A stretch of 64,000 nt of DNA, taken from contig WGNA01000015.1 in assembly GCA_016124755.1 (NCBI GenBank), positions 1 to 64,000 on the forward strand. The letters are read 5' to 3'. Positions within the stretch are counted from its first letter, which is position 1, and each line of letters starts with the position of its first letter. The notes under the pieces were generated by a model. The model saw only the letters and a list, made by a program, of their open reading frames with translations, searched no databases and had not been told where the DNA came from. Positions 46,043 to 57,371 of this stretch are shown in pieces. The DNA is from Bacteroidota bacterium. GTDB taxonomy: Bacteria > Bacteroidota > Bacteroidia > NS11-12g > UBA9320. A program made the translations under genes and the position numbers.

Positions 46043-47479
46043 TCATTTCAACGGCTTGGTTGATTGACCGAGTGAAATGTTTTCATCCCCTTTTTTATAC
46101 GGGAGATAAGTAATAATGAACTGAAACATTTCATCGGTTGTACGCATACTTCCCCCTTCATTTTCGTAACGCTCTTTAATTTCCTGCGGTGGGTCGTACG
46201 GATTATTCGGGTTCTCCGACGTGTTGTCAAAAGTCGCTTCTGCAACAATCAGCGTCCCTTTTGGCAGGTGAACCGGATTTTTAAACGTGTAGAAATATTG
46301 CCAGCGGAAATCCCAGCGATTGATCCGGATTAATGGAATAGTGTCGCCTTGTAGTGTAACTCCGTACGCCAGAAATTTCGATCCGAGCAAATGCATGTGC
46401 GGATTGATGGTGAGAACAGATGCATCCCAGTTAAGTCTGTACTTTGTTGTGCAGGTAATTATAGTATCCGGTGGAATTACAAGAGGAGGTGAAATAGCAC
46501 TAAGTCCGTTCGTTCCGAGCATAAGTTCCTGTGTGGGTCTTCCCGGAGGGGATTTGCTGTAAAAAATATTAAAGTGCGAACGGTCCCACATATCTTCCTG
46601 AGTGGGAGCATAGTGAAGACTCTGAACAAAAATGGTTGACTTACGACTCACCGGAAATCCGCCGATTCCCTCCGGATACATGGTTCCTTCCACGCCAGGC
46701 AGGTAGTTGATAGCACTTTCGAATTTCTGAACATTTCGAAAATCACCATCGTCGTGAGTGAGTTGCATTTCCAGCATTTCCGTATCGTATGTTGATCCAT
46801 CGGTTTCAACATTTACAACATGCCGGCCGGCAAAGACATTCTTCTTTCGGTTAAAGTCGTAATTGAGAAGATGTCCGTTTAGGTGGTGAACGATGTTGTG
46901 CTCACCGGTTACGAACTCAATGGCTCTGATAAACGTGTCACGGTCAATTTCGAACGGAACCTTTACCGATAAAAACAAATCGCGGTTTTTCCCGGGTACA
47001 AAAATCGAATCCATATAAATGGTCTTGTCGGGTTTCCCCAACATAGAAACCGGATTGAATTCGGGAAGTTCCGGCATTTGCGACATGTTGCCTTTTGGCT
47101 GATCGCCGTCAATCCATTTAAAGATTTTGTTTTTTTCTTCCTGAGTAAGGTAGTTCTCCCCGACAAAGTGGGTGTACTCCGGATCGGCAGGCCACGGCGG
47201 CATTATACCGTTTGCAATTGCCTTTCGGATCGTTCTCTTTTTTCTGAGAACTTCCTCATAAGTTGTTAGTGGAAAAGGCCCGATACCTCCTTTGTGATGA
47301 CACCGAACGCAGTGATCATAAAGTATAGGTGCAACATCTTCCGCAAATGTGATCTCCGTGCGATTTTTATTTTGAGTTTTGCCGAGAATTAAATCTCTAA
47401 CCCAGCCGAAAACAAGTGATGTCATTAATAACGACAATCCGAAAAGCAGAAGAAATCTTTGGGTTTTAGGTGAACTCAT
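46043..47479 (-). CDS. Cytochrome c / copper type II monooxygenase-like protein
   Basis: 478 residues. N-terminal membrane anchor (about 9-30); a haem-binding CVRCH at 57-61 in a short c-type domain (DVAPILYDHCVRCHHKGG); then the PHM/DBH-like fold with histidines in HNIVHHLNGH (194-203, CuH-type site), INPHMHLLG (HMH at 361-363, CuM-type site), and the family tail DNTSENPNNPYDPP. By family, copper-dependent hydroxylation or a related reaction in the periplasm; the substrate is unknown. The redoxin gene lies upstream by 26 bp on the same strand, so the two are probably one operon. Confidence 0.85.
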   Translation of the reverse strand: MSSPKTQRFLLLFGLSLLMTSLVFGWVRDLILGKTQNKNRTEITFAEDVAPILYDHCVRCHHKGGIGPFPLTTYEEVLRKKRTIRKAIANGIMPPWPADPEYTHFVGENYLTQEEKNKIFKWIDGDQPKGNMSQMPELPEFNPVSMLGKPDKTIYMDSIFVPGKNRDLFLSVKVPFEIDRDTFIRAIEFVTGEHNIVHHLNGHLLNYDFNRKKNVFAGRHVVNVETDGSTYDTEMLEMQLTHDDGDFRNVQKFESAINYLPGVEGTMYPEGIGGFPVSRKSTIFVQSLHYAPTQEDMWDRSHFNIFYSKSPPGRPTQELMLGTNGLSAISPPLVIPPDTIITCTTKYRLNWDASVLTINPHMHLLGSKFLAYGVTLQGDTIPLIRINRWDFRWQYFYTFKNPVHLPKGTLIVAEATFDNTSENPNNPYDPPQEIKERYENEGGSMRTTDEMFQFIITYLPYKKGDENISLGQSTKPLK

Positions 47480-47505: not shown

Positions 47506-48048
47506 TTATTCAATCACGCATCCCACCGCTTCGGTTTTGGAAATAACAATTGTGCTGTCTTTCGAAAATTGCCGAACTGCATTTTTCAACCAAAACCGAT
47601 TGGGCTTAATTCTTTTTCGTGCTAAGGTTATGGCCCAATTATCAAAGGCACCCTGATATTTAATGTTCCCTGAATTATCCAATAAAAAGAATTCGGGCGT
47701 GATGGTAGCTTTTAAATTATGCGTTAACTCATATTTTTTATCGAGTAAAATCGGAATGTTGAAATGAAAGGAATCTGCAAAATGCCGGAGTTCATTTTTA
47801 CTATAATGCTCTCCGGGTAAGACAGCATAATATGCATAATTTGGAAAGTCATTGGCTAATTCTTTAAAATTAAAAGTATAAGCGTGAGATAAAGGGCAAT
47901 CCGGAGTGATAAACATTAAAACAGTTCCCTTTGATTCGGATGACGGAATTTGATGAGAATTTTCTTGTGTGTCTTGTAGAATTATTGATTTCGAACAGGA
48001 AGAAAAAAGAATCGCAATTGCAAAAAGGGTTGTTGAAAACAGTTTCAT
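47506..48048 (-). CDS. Redoxin-domain lipoprotein
   Basis: 180 residues from ATG 48048 with lipobox FSSC (Cys17-18 region). Thioredoxin fold with FITPDCPLSHAYTFNF (CPLS: one active-site Cys and no resolving Cys in the loop), PEFFLLDNSGNIKYQG, and a C-terminal TEAVGCVIE whose Cys is conserved in this redoxin group. The frame is open to 48108, but the promoter box lies between. Proteins that fuse such a redoxin to a haem and copper-monooxygenase part are known; here the parts are separate genes. Confidence 0.87.
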   Translation of the reverse strand: MKLFSTTLFAIAILFSSCSKSIILQDTQENSHQIPSSESKGTVLMFITPDCPLSHAYTFNFKELANDFPNYAYYAVLPGEHYSKNELRHFADSFHFNIPILLDKKYELTHNLKATITPEFFLLDNSGNIKYQGAFDNWAITLARKRIKPNRFWLKNAVRQFSKDSTIVISKTEAVGCVIE

Positions 48049-48053
48049 CTCAA

Positions 48054-48061
48054 CAAAGTTA
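48054..48061 (-). promoter_or_regulatory. -7 box (TAACTTTG) of the redoxin gene
   Basis: Exact TAnnTTTG ending 5 bp before ATG 48048 on the minus strand; another leaderless-type start. Confidence 0.5.
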
Positions 48062-48090
48062 TAATACTTGCTTAAGGTGCGGGAATCCGG

Positions 48091-48098
48091 CATATTTG
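48091..48098 (+). promoter_or_regulatory. Near-consensus -7 box (CATATTTG) of the alkB-like gene
   Basis: CATATTTG differs from TAnnTTTG at its first base only and ends 4 bp before TTG 48103. It lies in the 54-bp space shared with the divergent redoxin promoter. Confidence 0.35.
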
Positions 48099-48102
48099 AG
48101 TG

Positions 48103-49161
48103 TTGCAAGTTAAAGATCTGAAATATCTCATGGGCTATTCTCTGCCGGCTTTGGCCATAGCCGGAATGATATTAAAAGGATTTTTTATCTGGTTGTTGCC
48201 GGTGTATGCTTTTCTTCTTGTTCCTATTGCTGAACAATTGATTCCGCTTAATTCTATAAACCTGAGTACATCTGAAAAACAACGAAAAAGAGTGCATCCG
48301 ATTTTCGACTGGATGCTCTACCTCAATGTTCCGATAATTTTTACATGCATCATTTTAATGTGTTTTCAAATTCGAAATCCCGAGGTAAGTCTGCTCGAAA
48401 AAATTGTAATGAATATTTCGGTTGGAGTGGTTCTGGGTGCAAACGGAATTAATGTAGCACACGAACTCGGTCACCGAAACCGTAAATATGAAAAGTGGCT
48501 AGCCGAAATTATACTGGTTCCTGTTTTCTATTCACACTTCACAACCGAGCATAACATTGGTCATCATAATTATGTGGGAACTCATCGGGATCCGGCGACA
48601 GCCAAACGAAATCAGCATGTTTTTTCCTTTTGGTGGCAGTCGGTAACCGGTTGTTTTGCCAGTGCAATTCAACACCAATTTAAAATTTCAAAAAAGAAAA
48701 ATGAGGGTTTTATCTCTCTTAAAAATCCGATTGTACGGGGTTGGATTCTTCAAATGATTTATCTGGGATTGATATACCTGTTTTTTGGAACCGAGTCACT
48801 TCTTTATTGTATTAATGCCGGAATAATTGGATTTCTGTTATTAGAGACAATCAATTATATCGAGCATTATGGTTTGAGCAGAAAATTAACCGGGGCAAAT
48901 ACATACGAAAGAATATCTGCTCGTCATTCCTGGAATTCGGATCACACATTCGGACGAATTATTTTATACGAACTAACCCGACATTCGGATCATCATTATC
49001 ACACCGGAAAAAAATATCAGATTCTGGATCATATCGATCCGTCACCACAATTGCCTTGTGGCTACCCGGCTGCAATTCTCATTAGTTTTATACCGCCTGT
49101 CTGGTATAAAATGGTGCATCCCGTTTTAGATAAATTTCAAGCAGATCATGCCGCGATCTGA
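48103..49161 (+). CDS. AlkB-type integral-membrane di-iron hydroxylase
   Basis: 352 residues with four or more membrane helices and all AlkB histidine motifs: HELGHR near 119, EHNIGHHNYVGTHRDPATA near 148, NYIEHYGL near 249 (the hydrocarbon-hydroxylase signature that separates AlkB from plain desaturases) and LTRHSDHHYHTGKKYQ near 294. By family it inserts oxygen into a terminal CH3 of alkanes or related chains, with electrons from rubredoxin or ferredoxin; no rubredoxin gene is nearby. TTG 48103 (MQVKDLKYLMGYSLPA) is chosen for its match to AlkB N-termini; GTG 48100 or ATG 48130 are alternatives. Confidence 0.88.
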   Translation: MQVKDLKYLMGYSLPALAIAGMILKGFFIWLLPVYAFLLVPIAEQLIPLNSINLSTSEKQRKRVHPIFDWMLYLNVPIIFTCIILMCFQIRNPEVSLLEKIVMNISVGVVLGANGINVAHELGHRNRKYEKWLAEIILVPVFYSHFTTEHNIGHHNYVGTHRDPATAKRNQHVFSFWWQSVTGCFASAIQHQFKISKKKNEGFISLKNPIVRGWILQMIYLGLIYLFFGTESLLYCINAGIIGFLLLETINYIEHYGLSRKLTGANTYERISARHSWNSDHTFGRIILYELTRHSDHHYHTGKKYQILDHIDPSPQLPCGYPAAILISFIPPVWYKMVHPVLDKFQADHAAI

Positions 49162-51047: not shown

Positions 51048-51079
51048 AAAAAAAAAGTCCGCCTCACAGGGCGGACTTT
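51048..51079 (-). terminator. Intrinsic terminator of the H1-like gene
   Basis: AAAGTCCGCC (51054-51063) pairs with GGCGGACTTT (51070-51079) around a 6-nt loop; on the minus strand a run of nine T follows (51048-51056). It lies 30 bp past the H1-like stop codon. Confidence 0.9.
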
Positions 51080-51108
51080 CAAATCTAAATTATTGAACAA
51101 CGGGCTGA

Positions 51109-52275
51109 TTAGCTCTTTGATTCTGATGAATTGTTGTTTGAGTTCTGAGGAGCTGAAGGAACCGCAGCAGTTGTTTTTACTTTTTTAACTGTTTTGGTTG
51201 CTTTTTTAGCGGTTGCCTTTTTAGCGACAACCGGTTTAGCTGTGGCCGTTTTCTTTGGTCGGCCGGCTCTGCGAACTGGCTTGGCTGCTGGTGTTGCCGG
51301 AGTTGCAGCAGGAGCAGCGGCAGCAGTAGTTTTTACATTTTTACTGCCTGGCTTTCTGCCTCTTTTTTTAGGAGCAGCAGCCGTTGTTTTTGCAGTAGCA
51401 GCAGTTTTAACATTTTTGCTACCTGGCTTTCTACCTCTTTTCTTAGGAGCAGCCGTCGTTGCTTTTACTGTTGCGGTTGCAGCTGTTTTTACATTTTTGC
51501 TTCCGGGTTTTCTGCCACGTTTTTTAGGAGCAGCAGCAGTTGTAGTTGCCGGTGCAGAAGCCGCAGTTTTAACATTTTTACTACCGGGTTTTCTGCCGCG
51601 TTTTTTAGGAGCAGTTGCCGTAGTAGCAGCAGGAGCAGCAGCAGATTTAACATTTTTGCTTCCGGGTTTTCTACCTCTTCTTTTTGGAGCCGCAGCTGGA
51701 GTAGCAGTTTTGGCCGGTGTAGCGGCAGGAGCTGCATCAATTTTGGCTGCATATTCTGGTTTAATGCTGCCGGGTTTCGCAAACCAGGATGTAAGTGCAA
51801 GATATTTTTCACGTTGTCCGATTGAGAAAGTATCGAGTTTTTTATCTCTCGTTCTCAAACGAAAAACTACGTTCATAACTGCTTGTTTAGTGCTCGTTCT
51901 TTTAGAAGCCGGAAGTTTTGAAAAAGAAAGAATTTCATCTGTCAACTCATCATACGTGAGTGGTTTATTAACTTCCTGAAGTCTGTTAACAATAAGCGTT
52001 TCCCATAAGGATTTTCTTCCCGGTCTTTTTTTAGAACCTCTTGTTTTTGCAGCAGGAGCAGATGTGGTTTTGGCACTGGAAGAAGCAGAAGTTTCAGCAG
52101 GAGCACCTGTCGATACTGTTTTAATTTTAATGTCGATTGAAGTAGAACTGTCATCACCAAGTTGTGCAAGTACTTCTTTGATGTGTTGAAGTCGCTTCAC
52201 AGCTTTTTCAAGTTCTTCTCCATAGAATCTTCGCATTTCCGATGCTTCTGATTCTGAAATTTTAATTTTAGCCAT
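51109..52275 (-). CDS. Histone H1-like DNA-binding protein: coiled coil, winged helix and five RGRKPGSKN repeats
   Basis: 388 residues, very Lys/Ala/Pro-rich. In order: a helical N-terminus (about 1-45); a Ser/Ala linker; a winged-helix (HARE-HTH-like) domain at about 85-165 (SLWETLIVNRLQEVNKP, LTYDELTDEILSFSK, STKQAVMNVVFRLRTR); five copies of (K/R)RGRKPGSKNVK between about 200 and 320, spaced 24-27 residues by Ala/Thr/Pro linkers; a single RRAGRPKK AT-hook; an H1-like KKATAKKATKTVKK tail; and an Asn/Ser-rich end. RGRKP and RGRP-type hooks bind the minor groove of A/T-rich DNA. The domains suggest a nucleoid-associated protein; compaction or gene regulation are both possible. Not a recombinase. 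No adjacent partner. Confidence 0.85.
   Translation of the reverse strand: MAKIKISESEASEMRRFYGEELEKAVKRLQHIKEVLAQLGDDSSTSIDIKIKTVSTGAPAETSASSSAKTTSAPAAKTRGSKKRPGRKSLWETLIVNRLQEVNKPLTYDELTDEILSFSKLPASKRTSTKQAVMNVVFRLRTRDKKLDTFSIGQREKYLALTSWFAKPGSIKPEYAAKIDAAPAATPAKTATPAAAPKRRGRKPGSKNVKSAAAPAATTATAPKKRGRKPGSKNVKTAASAPATTTAAAPKKRGRKPGSKNVKTAATATVKATTAAPKKRGRKPGSKNVKTAATAKTTAAAPKKRGRKPGSKNVKTTAAAAPAATPATPAAKPVRRAGRPKKTATAKPVVAKKATAKKATKTVKKVKTTAAVPSAPQNSNNNSSESKS
51337..51690 (-). repeat. Five imperfect tandem repeats of about 72-81 bp in the H1-like gene
   Basis: A conserved block of about 35 bp encodes RGRKPGSKNVK five times; starts are near 51337, 51409, 51490, 51571 and 51649 (spacings about 72, 81, 81 and 78 bp, all multiples of three). 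The blocks differ mainly at third codon positions. It is coding DNA, not a CRISPR array. Confidence 0.85.
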
Positions 52276-52307: not shown

Positions 52308-52337
52308 CAAAGTTATTATCAAAAAACAAATATTCAA
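52308..52337 (-). promoter_or_regulatory. Promoter of the H1-like gene
   Basis: TTG (52335-52337), 19-bp spacer and TAACTTTG (52308-52315) on the minus strand, both boxes and spacing at consensus. Start near 52303, leader about 27 nt. Confidence 0.65.
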
Positions 52338-53954: not shown

Positions 53955-56900
53955 CTATTCCGCAACCTTAATCAAGGTGCCATCCGTACGAAAATATCCC
54001 ATGTGGTTATTCCTTCTGTAGCGGAAGACTTTCTGGCTGCTTTCAAAATAAATATCCTGACATTCCGGAGGTACGATAAATCTCCCGGTTGAATCTGCAA
54101 CACCGTTTAATGTATGATTAGAAACCGTACAAATATTCTCGGCGGGCTTTGAAATCCAGTCGAAAAATGGCGGAATAACCATAAATCCGTTCGTGTCGAT
54201 AATGCCGAATTGATTATTAATCTGAACTAATGCGAAACCGTTTTCGAAAGGTTCGGCAAACTGAAAAGTGGCATTAAAAAGATTCTGACCTTTTTCGTTT
54301 AAAAACTCTACTCCGGATGTGGTTCGCATTAAAACAAAGCCATTCCGGAACCCCGACAGAGGTTTGCCCGCAAATGAATTTAAGGTGTCGCAGTTTTTAT
54401 TTAATACGTAGGTTGTATTCTTATTATAACTCACAGTAAGATCGTTTTCAAAGGGTTCGATGTGCGAAAATTCGATCTTGTTAACCGGAAGTCCCTGTGT
54501 GTTGTACAAATAGTGTTTTCCATTGCGGCTTACAATTAGCACCCCGTTTAAAAAGCCCTGACTCACATGTCCTTTAATTTTTTTTACTTTTTCTCCCATC
54601 CGGTCGTAAATAAAAACAGAGCGGCTTTTTCGGGCTACGAAGCGATCTTCACCAAACCAGATTTTTTGAAATTTAACCGGAACAACATGTTTGCCCTGCG
54701 TATTTAAAATACCGCGAGAAGAGCCTTTCCGAACTTCAGCAAACCCTTCTTTATTAAAAGGCTCACCCCGTGAATACATAAATTTTGAAATGACTCGTCC
54801 GTTGGTTGTAATGTAACCGTACCGGGAGTTTTTACCCTGAGGACGAACTAATGCATATCCGTTACTGAATGGTTGAACCCGTGCGTAAATCGGTGAAATA
54901 ACAATAGCTCCGTCTGAATCCATATAACCGTAGTATTTCTCACCCATGGGTCGAACGGGTATCAGACCATCGCTAAACACATCCAGCTTTCTGTAAAGGG
55001 TTTTACCCAATTGTTTGTAGTTCGAATCGATCATCGCATATCCACGGCCCAAACGAACGGCAGCAATTCCATCTGAATACGGCACAGCGTAACGCAACCG
55101 ATAATTATCATCGGTCTGCAAACCGGAATCTGCCACCATTACTTTTCCTTGCTGATCAACCATTACCAGATGATTGTTAATTACAGCCCAGGCTCTTCCG
55201 TTTTTAAAAGTTTGTGTTTCCTCAAACATCGGAGAACAAATCATCTTTCCGTTTAGAGAGGCAAATCCGAATAAAGACTGAGAAGATGTGACCTTGTAGA
55301 GTTTATAATTGGTATGCGGCAGGTAAACTATTTTTTTATAAACCGGAGGAATCAGAAAATTATCTTTAAACGACCACACTCCATAAGTAGAGTCCAGCGT
55401 GCGAATGATCATTGAATTGTTTCTGATATCACCGAGCTCTGCAATTCGAAGGTGTTTAAATTCTTCCCGGGTTTTAATAAAGTTGCCATTAATATCAATG
55501 AATGCCCAATAACCATCTCCGAAAATTGTATAGCCCCGGGCTGATTTTCCGTACCGGGAACATTGCGCCTTTAGCTGTGAAGTGAGTTCTGTAGGACTAA
55601 TAACCACGCATTTCCGGTAATACGGATTCTTACTTACGTATTCGTTTTTTTCTTCGGGTAGTGAAGTCATTCGTTCACCGACAAATACTGCCGCGTAACC
55701 TCCCGAATAAGGTGTTATGTACTTGCTGCCATACCATTTTACCATTCCGTTCGATTTGTTAACTGTGGCAAAGAATCCATTCGTAAACAAAACACGGATG
55801 GAAGGCATGTCGGCATCCCGAATATTTTTAACGTCGATGTAAAGTGCTTTGGGTTGAATTAAAGTTCGAAAACGCACTTCGTCTATTAATGCGTAAACGC
55901 CGTAGAAATGAGCGTCGACGTCTCCGTACATAATGTCTCTTCGAACATTTACTTTCCCGATTACATATTCGGTTCCGGCAACTTTTTCCAGTTCATCAAA
56001 AACCGGTTGAATAATGGTTCGTCCGCTCGAGTCTTTAAGTCCCCACTTCTTTTTGCTGTCGCGAAACCAAAGTTCGTTGGGTGTAACATTGTTTATCGAA
56101 GTTCTGCGAATCGGTGATGCGCCACCGTTTGAAACCATTTCGGAAGAGCCGATAACTCCGGTAAGCGCAATAGAACTTACATTTGAAAAAACGAGCGAAT
56201 CTGTAATGGTAAGGGTTGAATTGAATTCGTATAAAATGGCTGTAGAATCGGTGCGGGCTTTAACAACCCGGTCGTCTCCGGATGTTATATCATTATACCG
56301 GCAGGGCAAAAGCTGTTTTCCGTTAGAATCGATTAAACCCCAAAATCCATTTTTTCGGACCGGTATGGAACCCCAGGAATATTCGGGTCGCGCCCAGTCG
56401 AATTCATTATTTGTGATCCGTTTTCCATCGGTATTAAAAATCGCGTAACCGGATTGATTTAGTACGGCAACAAACCGGCTTGAATCTTCCAGCAAGCGTA
56501 TCGCTGAAAATTCAATCGGAATGATAAAACGCTTTTTAATCGTGGAGAAGATACCGAATGTGCTGTCGTGTCCGACTAAAAACCAATCGGTTCCTGATGG
56601 TTGAATCGTGCCTTTTGATTCATAAATTATGCGACGGCTTCCTGCATCGTAGATCGTAACTGAATCATGGTTGTGTATGCTGTAAAATCCTCTTCCAAGA
56701 TAATTGGAATATTGCATTCTAACGGAGGTTAATGAGTCGCCATTCGGTGCATACAGATCCGTTTGAATGCCATCTTTTTGTTTAGCAAAAATGATTTCAG
56801 ACCCGATATCATATTCAACATGCCGGGTTTTAATAATCAATTCTCCGGTTCTGGAATAAACGACGCAATTCCCGGATTTGCAGGCTTCGAAGTATTTCCC

Positions 56901-57371
56901 GACTTGTTTGATGCCATGATAAAGAGTGGGAACAATTATCACATTGTTTACATCTGCCATTCCGAAAAGTGAATCCTTAATGATCAGGATTTCCGGATCC
57001 GGGGAGAATGACACTGCGTCGTACACCGCGTCGATCGTCGATTTCTGAGCAATGTTGTACCAGCCGTAGAAACCTTCTTTCCGGTAAATGATAATATCGT
57101 TTTGTAAATCGGCTACTTCATTAAACTGAAGCGGAGCGACAACATTTCCTAGCGTGTCGATGAGAAAACTTCCGGTTCCGTTTGAAGCCCAGGTGTATGG
57201 AGAAGAATTAAACGGAAGGCATAAATCAAACTTCGGATTTATCTTCCACACACCTTCTGAATTAATATAACCCCATTTCCCATCTTTATCGGCGGGTAAG
57301 AGATTGAATCTGGATTGGGCAAAAACCGAATTAAGAGAAAGAAAAAAGATGACGGTGGAGATCCATCTCAT
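53955..57371 (-). CDS. WG-repeat protein, secreted
   Basis: 1138 residues. Signal peptide (MRWISTVIFFLSLNSVFA|Q, residue 18/19). The rest is built from WG repeats (KWGYINSEGVW, GFWGLIDSNGKQLLPCRY, KKWGLKDSSGRTII, YYGYMDSDGAIVISP, RYGYITTNGRVIS, QFGIIDTNGFMVIPP and others); I count at least fifteen readable units, often followed by PFxNGYALV. WG repeats form beta-propeller-like structures; function unknown. It is the second gene of an operon with the lipoprotein, whose stop lies 14 bp upstream of its ATG. Confidence 0.9.
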   Translation of the reverse strand: MRWISTVIFFLSLNSVFAQSRFNLLPADKDGKWGYINSEGVWKINPKFDLCLPFNSSPYTWASNGTGSFLIDTLGNVVAPLQFNEVADLQNDIIIYRKEGFYGWYNIAQKSTIDAVYDAVSFSPDPEILIIKDSLFGMADVNNVIIVPTLYHGIKQVGKYFEACKSGNCVVYSRTGELIIKTRHVEYDIGSEIIFAKQKDGIQTDLYAPNGDSLTSVRMQYSNYLGRGFYSIHNHDSVTIYDAGSRRIIYESKGTIQPSGTDWFLVGHDSTFGIFSTIKKRFIIPIEFSAIRLLEDSSRFVAVLNQSGYAIFNTDGKRITNNEFDWARPEYSWGSIPVRKNGFWGLIDSNGKQLLPCRYNDITSGDDRVVKARTDSTAILYEFNSTLTITDSLVFSNVSSIALTGVIGSSEMVSNGGASPIRRTSINNVTPNELWFRDSKKKWGLKDSSGRTIIQPVFDELEKVAGTEYVIGKVNVRRDIMYGDVDAHFYGVYALIDEVRFRTLIQPKALYIDVKNIRDADMPSIRVLFTNGFFATVNKSNGMVKWYGSKYITPYSGGYAAVFVGERMTSLPEEKNEYVSKNPYYRKCVVISPTELTSQLKAQCSRYGKSARGYTIFGDGYWAFIDINGNFIKTREEFKHLRIAELGDIRNNSMIIRTLDSTYGVWSFKDNFLIPPVYKKIVYLPHTNYKLYKVTSSQSLFGFASLNGKMICSPMFEETQTFKNGRAWAVINNHLVMVDQQGKVMVADSGLQTDDNYRLRYAVPYSDGIAAVRLGRGYAMIDSNYKQLGKTLYRKLDVFSDGLIPVRPMGEKYYGYMDSDGAIVISPIYARVQPFSNGYALVRPQGKNSRYGYITTNGRVISKFMYSRGEPFNKEGFAEVRKGSSRGILNTQGKHVVPVKFQKIWFGEDRFVARKSRSVFIYDRMGEKVKKIKGHVSQGFLNGVLIVSRNGKHYLYNTQGLPVNKIEFSHIEPFENDLTVSYNKNTTYVLNKNCDTLNSFAGKPLSGFRNGFVLMRTTSGVEFLNEKGQNLFNATFQFAEPFENGFALVQINNQFGIIDTNGFMVIPPFFDWISKPAENICTVSNHTLNGVADSTGRFIVPPECQDIYFESSQKVFRYRRNNHMGYFRTDGTLIKVAE

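Follow-up and report, generated by a model that had tools for sequence, protein, structure and literature searches.

H-NS, MvaT, Lsr2 and Rok, described in Proteobacteria, Mycobacterium and Bacillus, combine an N-terminal oligomerisation region with a linker and a C-terminal DNA-binding domain (PMC6936261). In Rok, residues 1-45 are conserved and residues 46-95 variable; an RRRRGT arm that lies in the minor groove comes next, and then a winged helix, which reads the minor groove via helix a3 and the wing residues R174 and K171 (PMC6212790). RGR hooks occur in Lsr2, Bv3F and the H-NS homologue Sfx, in which the hook contributes to repression (PMC11796372), and in plant AHL proteins the type-I AT-hook, an RGR core with Gly-Ser-Lys-Asn-Lys, uses RGR to bind A/T DNA in the minor groove (PMC4209074). 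The Lys/Ala tail of the H1-like protein Hc2 is built of repeats and variable in length (PMC2848022). In the open-access literature on Bacteroidetes and Flavobacteria, we found no xenogeneic silencer, AT-hook protein or H1-type nucleoid protein of the layout described here.

The window (the whole stretch analysed, 64,000 nucleotides from the start of contig WGNA01000015.1 of a Bacteroidota bacterium) carries a gene of this layout on the minus strand. It starts with an ATG at 52275 and ends with a stop at 51109, in agreement with the coordinates and the 388 residues given in an earlier reading made from the sequence only. The features of the locus are listed below from upstream to downstream.

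52308..52337, minus strand: Bacteroidota-type promoter, TTG-N19-TAACTTTG (pattern scan and dinucleotide shuffles)
51109..52275, minus strand: whole gene, 388 aa, pI 11.1, 40.7 kDa (ORF, translation, composition)
52162..52254, minus strand: conserved amphipathic helix, residues 8-38 (AlphaFold2 helix, pLDDT about 90)
52030..52149, minus strand: disordered linker, residues 43-82 (pLDDT <50 at 52-74; family lengths)
52006..52029, minus strand: basic arm KRPGRKSL, residues 83-90, abutting helix 1 of the winged helix (conserved columns)
51748..52017, minus strand: winged helix with basic wing, residues 87-176 (AlphaFold2 in two constructs, Foldseek, VIA-align, conserved basic columns)
51646..51687, minus strand: AT-hook block 1, PKRRGRKPGSKNVK, residues 197-210 (sequence)
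51568..51609, minus strand: AT-hook block 2, PKKRGRKPGSKNVK, residues 223-236 (sequence)
51487..51528, minus strand: AT-hook block 3, residues 250-263 (sequence)
51406..51447, minus strand: AT-hook block 4, residues 277-290 (sequence)
51331..51372, minus strand: AT-hook block 5, residues 302-315 (sequence)
51250..51273, minus strand: RRAGRPKK, GRP-type AT-hook, residues 335-342 (sequence)
51112..51249, minus strand: Lys/Ala/Thr H1-type tail, residues 343-388 (sequence, charge)
51053..51080, minus strand: strong intrinsic terminator downstream of the gene, 11-bp stem followed by a T run

The sequence-only reading had credited the gene with its own consensus promoter and terminator. The terminator stands, and so does a promoter in the form TTG-N19-TAACTTTG, which is the form of Bacteroidota promoters and turned up in 2.1% of the shuffles when the dinucleotides of the 200 bp upstream were randomised; a sigma-70 scan was uninformative here. 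The gene is probably a single-gene transcription unit. An antisense ORF (51194..51979, plus strand) was set aside as the mirror of the AT-hook repeats on the other strand.

The N-terminus is helical, as had been proposed, and in a profile of 30 homologues the hydrophobic columns 11, 14, 18, 25, 29, 32, 36 and 39 follow the 3-4 spacing of heptads. This pattern, together with the conservation of the helix, makes it a probable dimerisation or oligomerisation module. The linker varies between 11 and 57 aa across the family and leads into the basic arm, which has the family consensus KKRGPKSI. Twelve positions (K83, G86, K88, S89, W91, I95, P105, Y108, L140, R141, G153 and W164) are invariant in 24 sequences. 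The net charge of residues 80-90 is +3 to +8 across the family, and the N-terminal module is slightly acidic whereas the winged helix carries +7 to +15.

The winged-helix prediction, which the sequence-only reading had itself named as a point at which it could fail, held. AlphaFold2 predictions of residues 1-180 with 24 sequences and of the winged-helix domain alone returned the same canonical winged helix (residues 87-161, pLDDT about 88-94), with a1 at 87-102, b1 at about 106-107, a2 at 108-119, a3 at 123-144, b2 at 147-152 and b3 at 156-161. Wing positions 155 and 157 are Lys or Arg in 30/30 homologues. The structural neighbours retrieved with Foldseek and VIA-align are winged helices of every kind (among them Hop2, Fur, MarR, PadR, Zalpha, TFIIIC, H1x and RNAP delta) and have similar scores; as a prediction this generic fold can be relied on, whereas its subfamily cannot. 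Among viral structures, the 180-residue core has as its nearest neighbour a protein of a Bacillus phage with a Rok winged-helix domain, a match that spans nearly the whole core but is weak (E 4e-3, large rmsd). The winged helix had no match in phage records or viral contigs, so that a phage origin is not indicated. A separate small family of Bacteroidia proteins (L037, L038) has a different N-terminus and a winged helix related to the one studied here (hhalign 93-94% for L038).

The label HARE-HTH-like, also given to this domain earlier, is weakly supported. The window protein does not match Pfam HARE-HTH (PF05066), and the label draws on two relatives, L042 and L043, the second winged helix of which reaches 21.5 and 22.9 bits, just below the cut-off of 25.9; hhalign identifies their duplicated winged helix as a homologue of the family domain (97-99%). 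Chain 8x6g_E of S. aureus RNAP, which we take to be delta, aligned with Z 9.4 (76 residues, rmsd 2.8), tied with unrelated winged helices. The delta sequence used for comparison matches the HARE-HTH profile, and by this match RNAP delta is a HARE-HTH protein. HARE-HTH proteins (RNAP delta, ASXL, restriction fusions) resemble the family in having a winged helix and then a conserved W after the wing, and RNAP delta is in addition a structural neighbour; unlike them, the window protein lacks the profile match. HARE-HTH is a plausible relative of the family winged helix.

Beyond the folded core lie five PK[KR]RGRKPGSKNVK blocks with RGR at residues 200, 226, 253, 280 and 305 (spacing 26, 27, 27 and 25), RAGRPKK at residue 336 and the Lys/Ala tail, so that the array described in the sequence-only reading is present as described. 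RGRKP arose in 14/20,000 shuffles of the tail, once each and never twice, and when the 4.05-Mb genome was scanned with a degenerate DNA pattern for RGR-x-PGSKN, these five sites were the only ones to match. Residues 181-388 contain 54 Lys/Arg and one acidic residue (net charge +53). By motif, the five KKRGRKPGSKNVK-type blocks and RRAGRPKK are AT-hooks, having an RGR or GRP core flanked by basic residues, and the RGR core with GSKN agrees with the earlier view of the repeats as minor-groove-type motifs. The RGRKPGSKN repeats would thus be expected to bind the A/T minor groove. The plant AHL type-I AT-hook likewise has Gly-Ser-Lys-Asn after its RGR core, and one member of the family (L023) carries RGRPAGSKNK. 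In contrast to the plant proteins, the window protein has no PPC domain and has five hook copies instead of one, with K in place of P after RGR (RGRKP) and a Val before the last Lys. A likeness of the hook to MeCP2 was set aside, as no confirmation of it was found in the open-access literature.

Among the five 14-codon blocks, pS is 0.60 versus a pN of 0.03 (ten pairs, which are not independent), and the sole amino-acid change is K to R in block 1. Since the synonymous sites have diverged and the peptide has not, the array is no fresh product of slippage and the peptide is being kept. Gene conversion among the five blocks may have taken place. The AT-hook repeats (51331-51687, minus strand) also match the Pfam entry RBR, 'RNA binding Region' (PF17208), with 38 bits at a cut-off of 24; relatives with RGRKPA or RGRKPK arrays gave no RBR match, for which reason RBR did not inform the functional reading, and the match probably reflects low-complexity basic sequence. 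It is worth flagging for annotation pipelines.

A profile of two sequences found relatives of the N-terminal 180 residues in 28/395 Bacteroidia genomes, and a profile of 30 sequences found them in 41/395 genomes and 24/196 genera, normally as one copy; the gene in the window is single copy as well. In GTDB species genomes 25 loci were detected, most of them in Flavobacteriales MAGs and others in Nonlabens and in one MAG labelled Chlorobiota, and the same parts were present in two genomes from another class of Bacteroidota. The core family matched no Pfam or NCBIfam family, and searches with PHROGs and PADLOC gave no consistent match (one weak PADLOC match among 24 members). Most matches with E 0.003-0.006 in the first phylum search were dropped as chance, a first match in G014 was dropped for stops inside it, and G206 (L008) was kept as a doubtful distant relative. 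The gene is found in 6/35 genomes of one family, and in the window's order no relative turned up in 107 further genomes except for one chance-level match. With the order otherwise empty the distribution is patchy, which indicates that the gene is dispensable over evolution. In 14 loci its neighbour, encoded on the other strand, is a P5C dehydrogenase gene, and the Nonlabens copy is surrounded by housekeeping genes; these conserved chromosomal neighbours rule out cargo of a mobile element for the compared loci. At the scale of these loci the gene is chromosomal and vertically inherited.

The core is under purifying selection (pN 0.029 and pS 0.33 for the pair L068/L070), whereas the tails of the same pair differ with a pN of 0.34 and 30 gap columns, making the tail the evolving part. 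The in-frame length change between close relatives that had been anticipated is therefore seen, in a pair other than the window's own array. The conserved unit of the family is the N-terminal heptad helix with the basic arm and the winged helix, and the tail is dispensable and fast-evolving. On a tree of 44 cores the tail hooks and the Lys/Ala tail each changed at least eight times, and more than half of the sampled members have no tail. The tree rows nearest to the window are L017, with a 34-aa tail containing one GRPRK, and L015, which is tail-less like the form carried by Nonlabens antarcticus (L047); elsewhere the tail has three RGPGRPRK (L016), six RGRKPA and two GRPRK (L018) or Lys/Ala sequence only (L019, L020). 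An HMM of the N-terminal module alone retrieved seven proteins (L031, L032, L033, L035, L036, L039 and L040) with E 1e-6 to 1e-13 and none among shuffled ORFs; these proteins, from other Bacteroidia, join the module to 3-11 AT-hooks, the winged helix being absent or unrecognised.

Further arrangements were observed. Four of these proteins (L031, L032, L033 and L040, family f59) have the N-terminal helix, 6-11 AT-hooks and a winged-helix-like segment at the C-terminus, i.e. the domain order is reversed. In L042:6589-6879 and L043:6586-6894 the winged helix is tandemly duplicated within one protein, the second copy being nearest to Pfam HARE-HTH. A divergent subfamily without tail (L085-L095) occurs in several genomes of one genus (g202, family f65) and has the N-terminal helix, GRPRK hooks in the linker of some members and a winged helix ending in RRGYHYGLKDWF. 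At L103 (G112) the gene is split or decayed: stops separate a short ORF for the N-terminal module from a neighbouring one for the winged helix.

The family shares with Rok, the xenogeneic silencer of Bacillus subtilis, the order and size of its parts: an N-terminal conserved region (1-42), a linker of 11-57 aa, a basic arm and a C-terminal winged helix with a basic wing. The C-terminal part of the Rok query sequence agrees with PDB 5zux/5zuz. WH_Rok (PF23159) matched none of 24 members at E<=1 and Rok itself at 1.7e-24, and hhalign of the family with Rok gave a probability of 0.2-2%, i.e. no homology. For the N-T-R base contacts of Rok in the minor groove and its A/T (TACTA) preference, the alignment gave no reliable correspondence of single residues. 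Given this lack of sequence kinship, the family may be said to work like Rok and not to be a Rok. Unlike the window protein, Rok has a neutral Q linker and neither an AT-hook-like motif nor a Lys/Ala tail. H-NS, Lsr2 and MvaT share the layout of oligomerisation domain, linker and minor-groove reader but have other DNA-binding folds and no sequence match, and the basic tail of the window protein lies beyond its folded domain. The sequence-only reading had proposed that an H1-like protein with a winged helix, repeats and a tail could be a nucleoid protein. The parts are there, but the conserved unit is Rok-like and the tail optional, and with the tail dispensable and the core conserved, Rok is a closer working model than an H1-tail protein with an added domain.

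With modest confidence, we favour an architectural protein of the nucleoid that acts in the manner of Rok and H-NS and to which a tail of the HMGA/H1 type has been added. The N-terminal heptad helix would pair or oligomerise. The KKRG-K-S arm, which is basic, and the winged helix with its basic wing would bind DNA, as their layout, charge and fold suggest, probably within or across a minor groove biased to A/T, as Rok does; such binding by the winged helix appears as likely as the recognition of a site. In the window's lineage the five type-I-like hooks, the one GRP hook and the +53 tail would contact additional A/T minor grooves as well as the backbone, and the higher avidity would lead to bridging and coating of A/T-rich DNA. 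As a result, A/T-rich DNA, which is often foreign, would be compacted and probably silenced.

An ordinary local transcription regulator, in which a dimeric winged helix recognises its operator specifically and the basic tail does no more than raise affinity, would account for the fold matches, which are mostly to Fur, MarR, PadR and other local regulators, and for a single-copy gene that is probably transcribed alone. We consider it unlikely, as no ligand or sensor domain was seen in the protein, no conserved neighbouring target gene was found outside clades with general synteny, and the +53 tail, the six hooks and the relatives made of an N-terminal helix and an AT-hook array fit broad binding better. 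Less likely still is a bacterial condenser that resembles eukaryotic linker histones, the tail compacting DNA by charge and the winged helix being a minor anchor. Eukaryotic H1 likewise has a winged helix and then a Lys/Ala tail at its C-terminus, tails of this kind occur repeatedly in the family, and the globular domain of H1x aligns over 78/83 residues (Z 8.8, rmsd 3.3). GH1 gave hhalign values of 17-30% over 26 columns; the GH5 sequence used in comparisons is presumed correct. The Z of H1x is tied with those of many unrelated winged helices, and the tail is the part that most sampled members lack and that diverges fast while the core is conserved. The bacterial H1-like proteins Hc2 (Chlamydia), BpH1 (Bordetella) and AlgP (Pseudomonas) have tails that are likewise Lys/Ala-rich, repeat-built and of variable length, and to our knowledge they have neither a folded winged helix nor RGRKPGSKN hooks. 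The window protein, with a conserved core of 180 aa containing a folded domain and with an optional tail, is not mainly a Lys/Ala tail as Hc1, Hc2 and AlgP are.

We give little weight to an action on RNA, polyphosphate or RNA polymerase instead of chromosome structure. The RBR match of the repeats and the structural likeness to the HARE-HTH protein RNAP delta would fit it, but RBR is absent from the relatives with similar arrays and may track low-complexity basic sequence, and the tail of RNAP delta is acidic, not basic. A reported effect of the H1-like AlgP on the spacing of polyphosphate granules (PMC9239181) would also fit such an action. Scarcely any credence is due to a winged helix that reads N6-methyladenine, as in type IV restriction enzymes fused to winged helices: prokaryotic winged helices of DpnI and HhiV4I are reported to sense 6mA (PMC11037411), but the protein has no nuclease domain, no restriction genes adjoin it within the window, and the single PADLOC match was weak.

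For the family as a whole, it is tentatively possible that it represents a xenogeneic silencer of Bacteroidota, a counterpart of Rok and H-NS that evolved independently and whose strength the lineages tune by gaining and losing arrays of plant-type AT-hooks and tails of the H1 type, in some cases with the winged helix replaced or duplicated. If this is true, it would be the first xenogeneic silencer of the Rok/H-NS type known to us in Bacteroidota. What is new here is an unnamed Bacteroidota family; the H-NS/Rok-type layout and the HMGA/H1-type tail are known kinds of parts, and together in this family they show that an H1/HMGA-like protein has been put together convergently in bacteria. The family provides a concrete single-copy silencer candidate with natural variants (tail-less, hook-rich, Lys/Ala-only and with a double winged helix), and the natural variation of the tail makes the contribution of the AT-hooks to DNA coating testable by comparison.

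Elsewhere in the window, 53955-57371 (minus strand) encodes a 1138-residue protein of WG beta repeats (Pfam PF14903), and 48100-49161 (plus strand) a membrane protein of the fatty-acid-desaturase family resembling alkane 1-monooxygenase. The latter gene is divergent from a redoxin-like gene (47506-48108) and from the gene at 46043-47479, which encodes a copper-monooxygenase/cytochrome-like protein.
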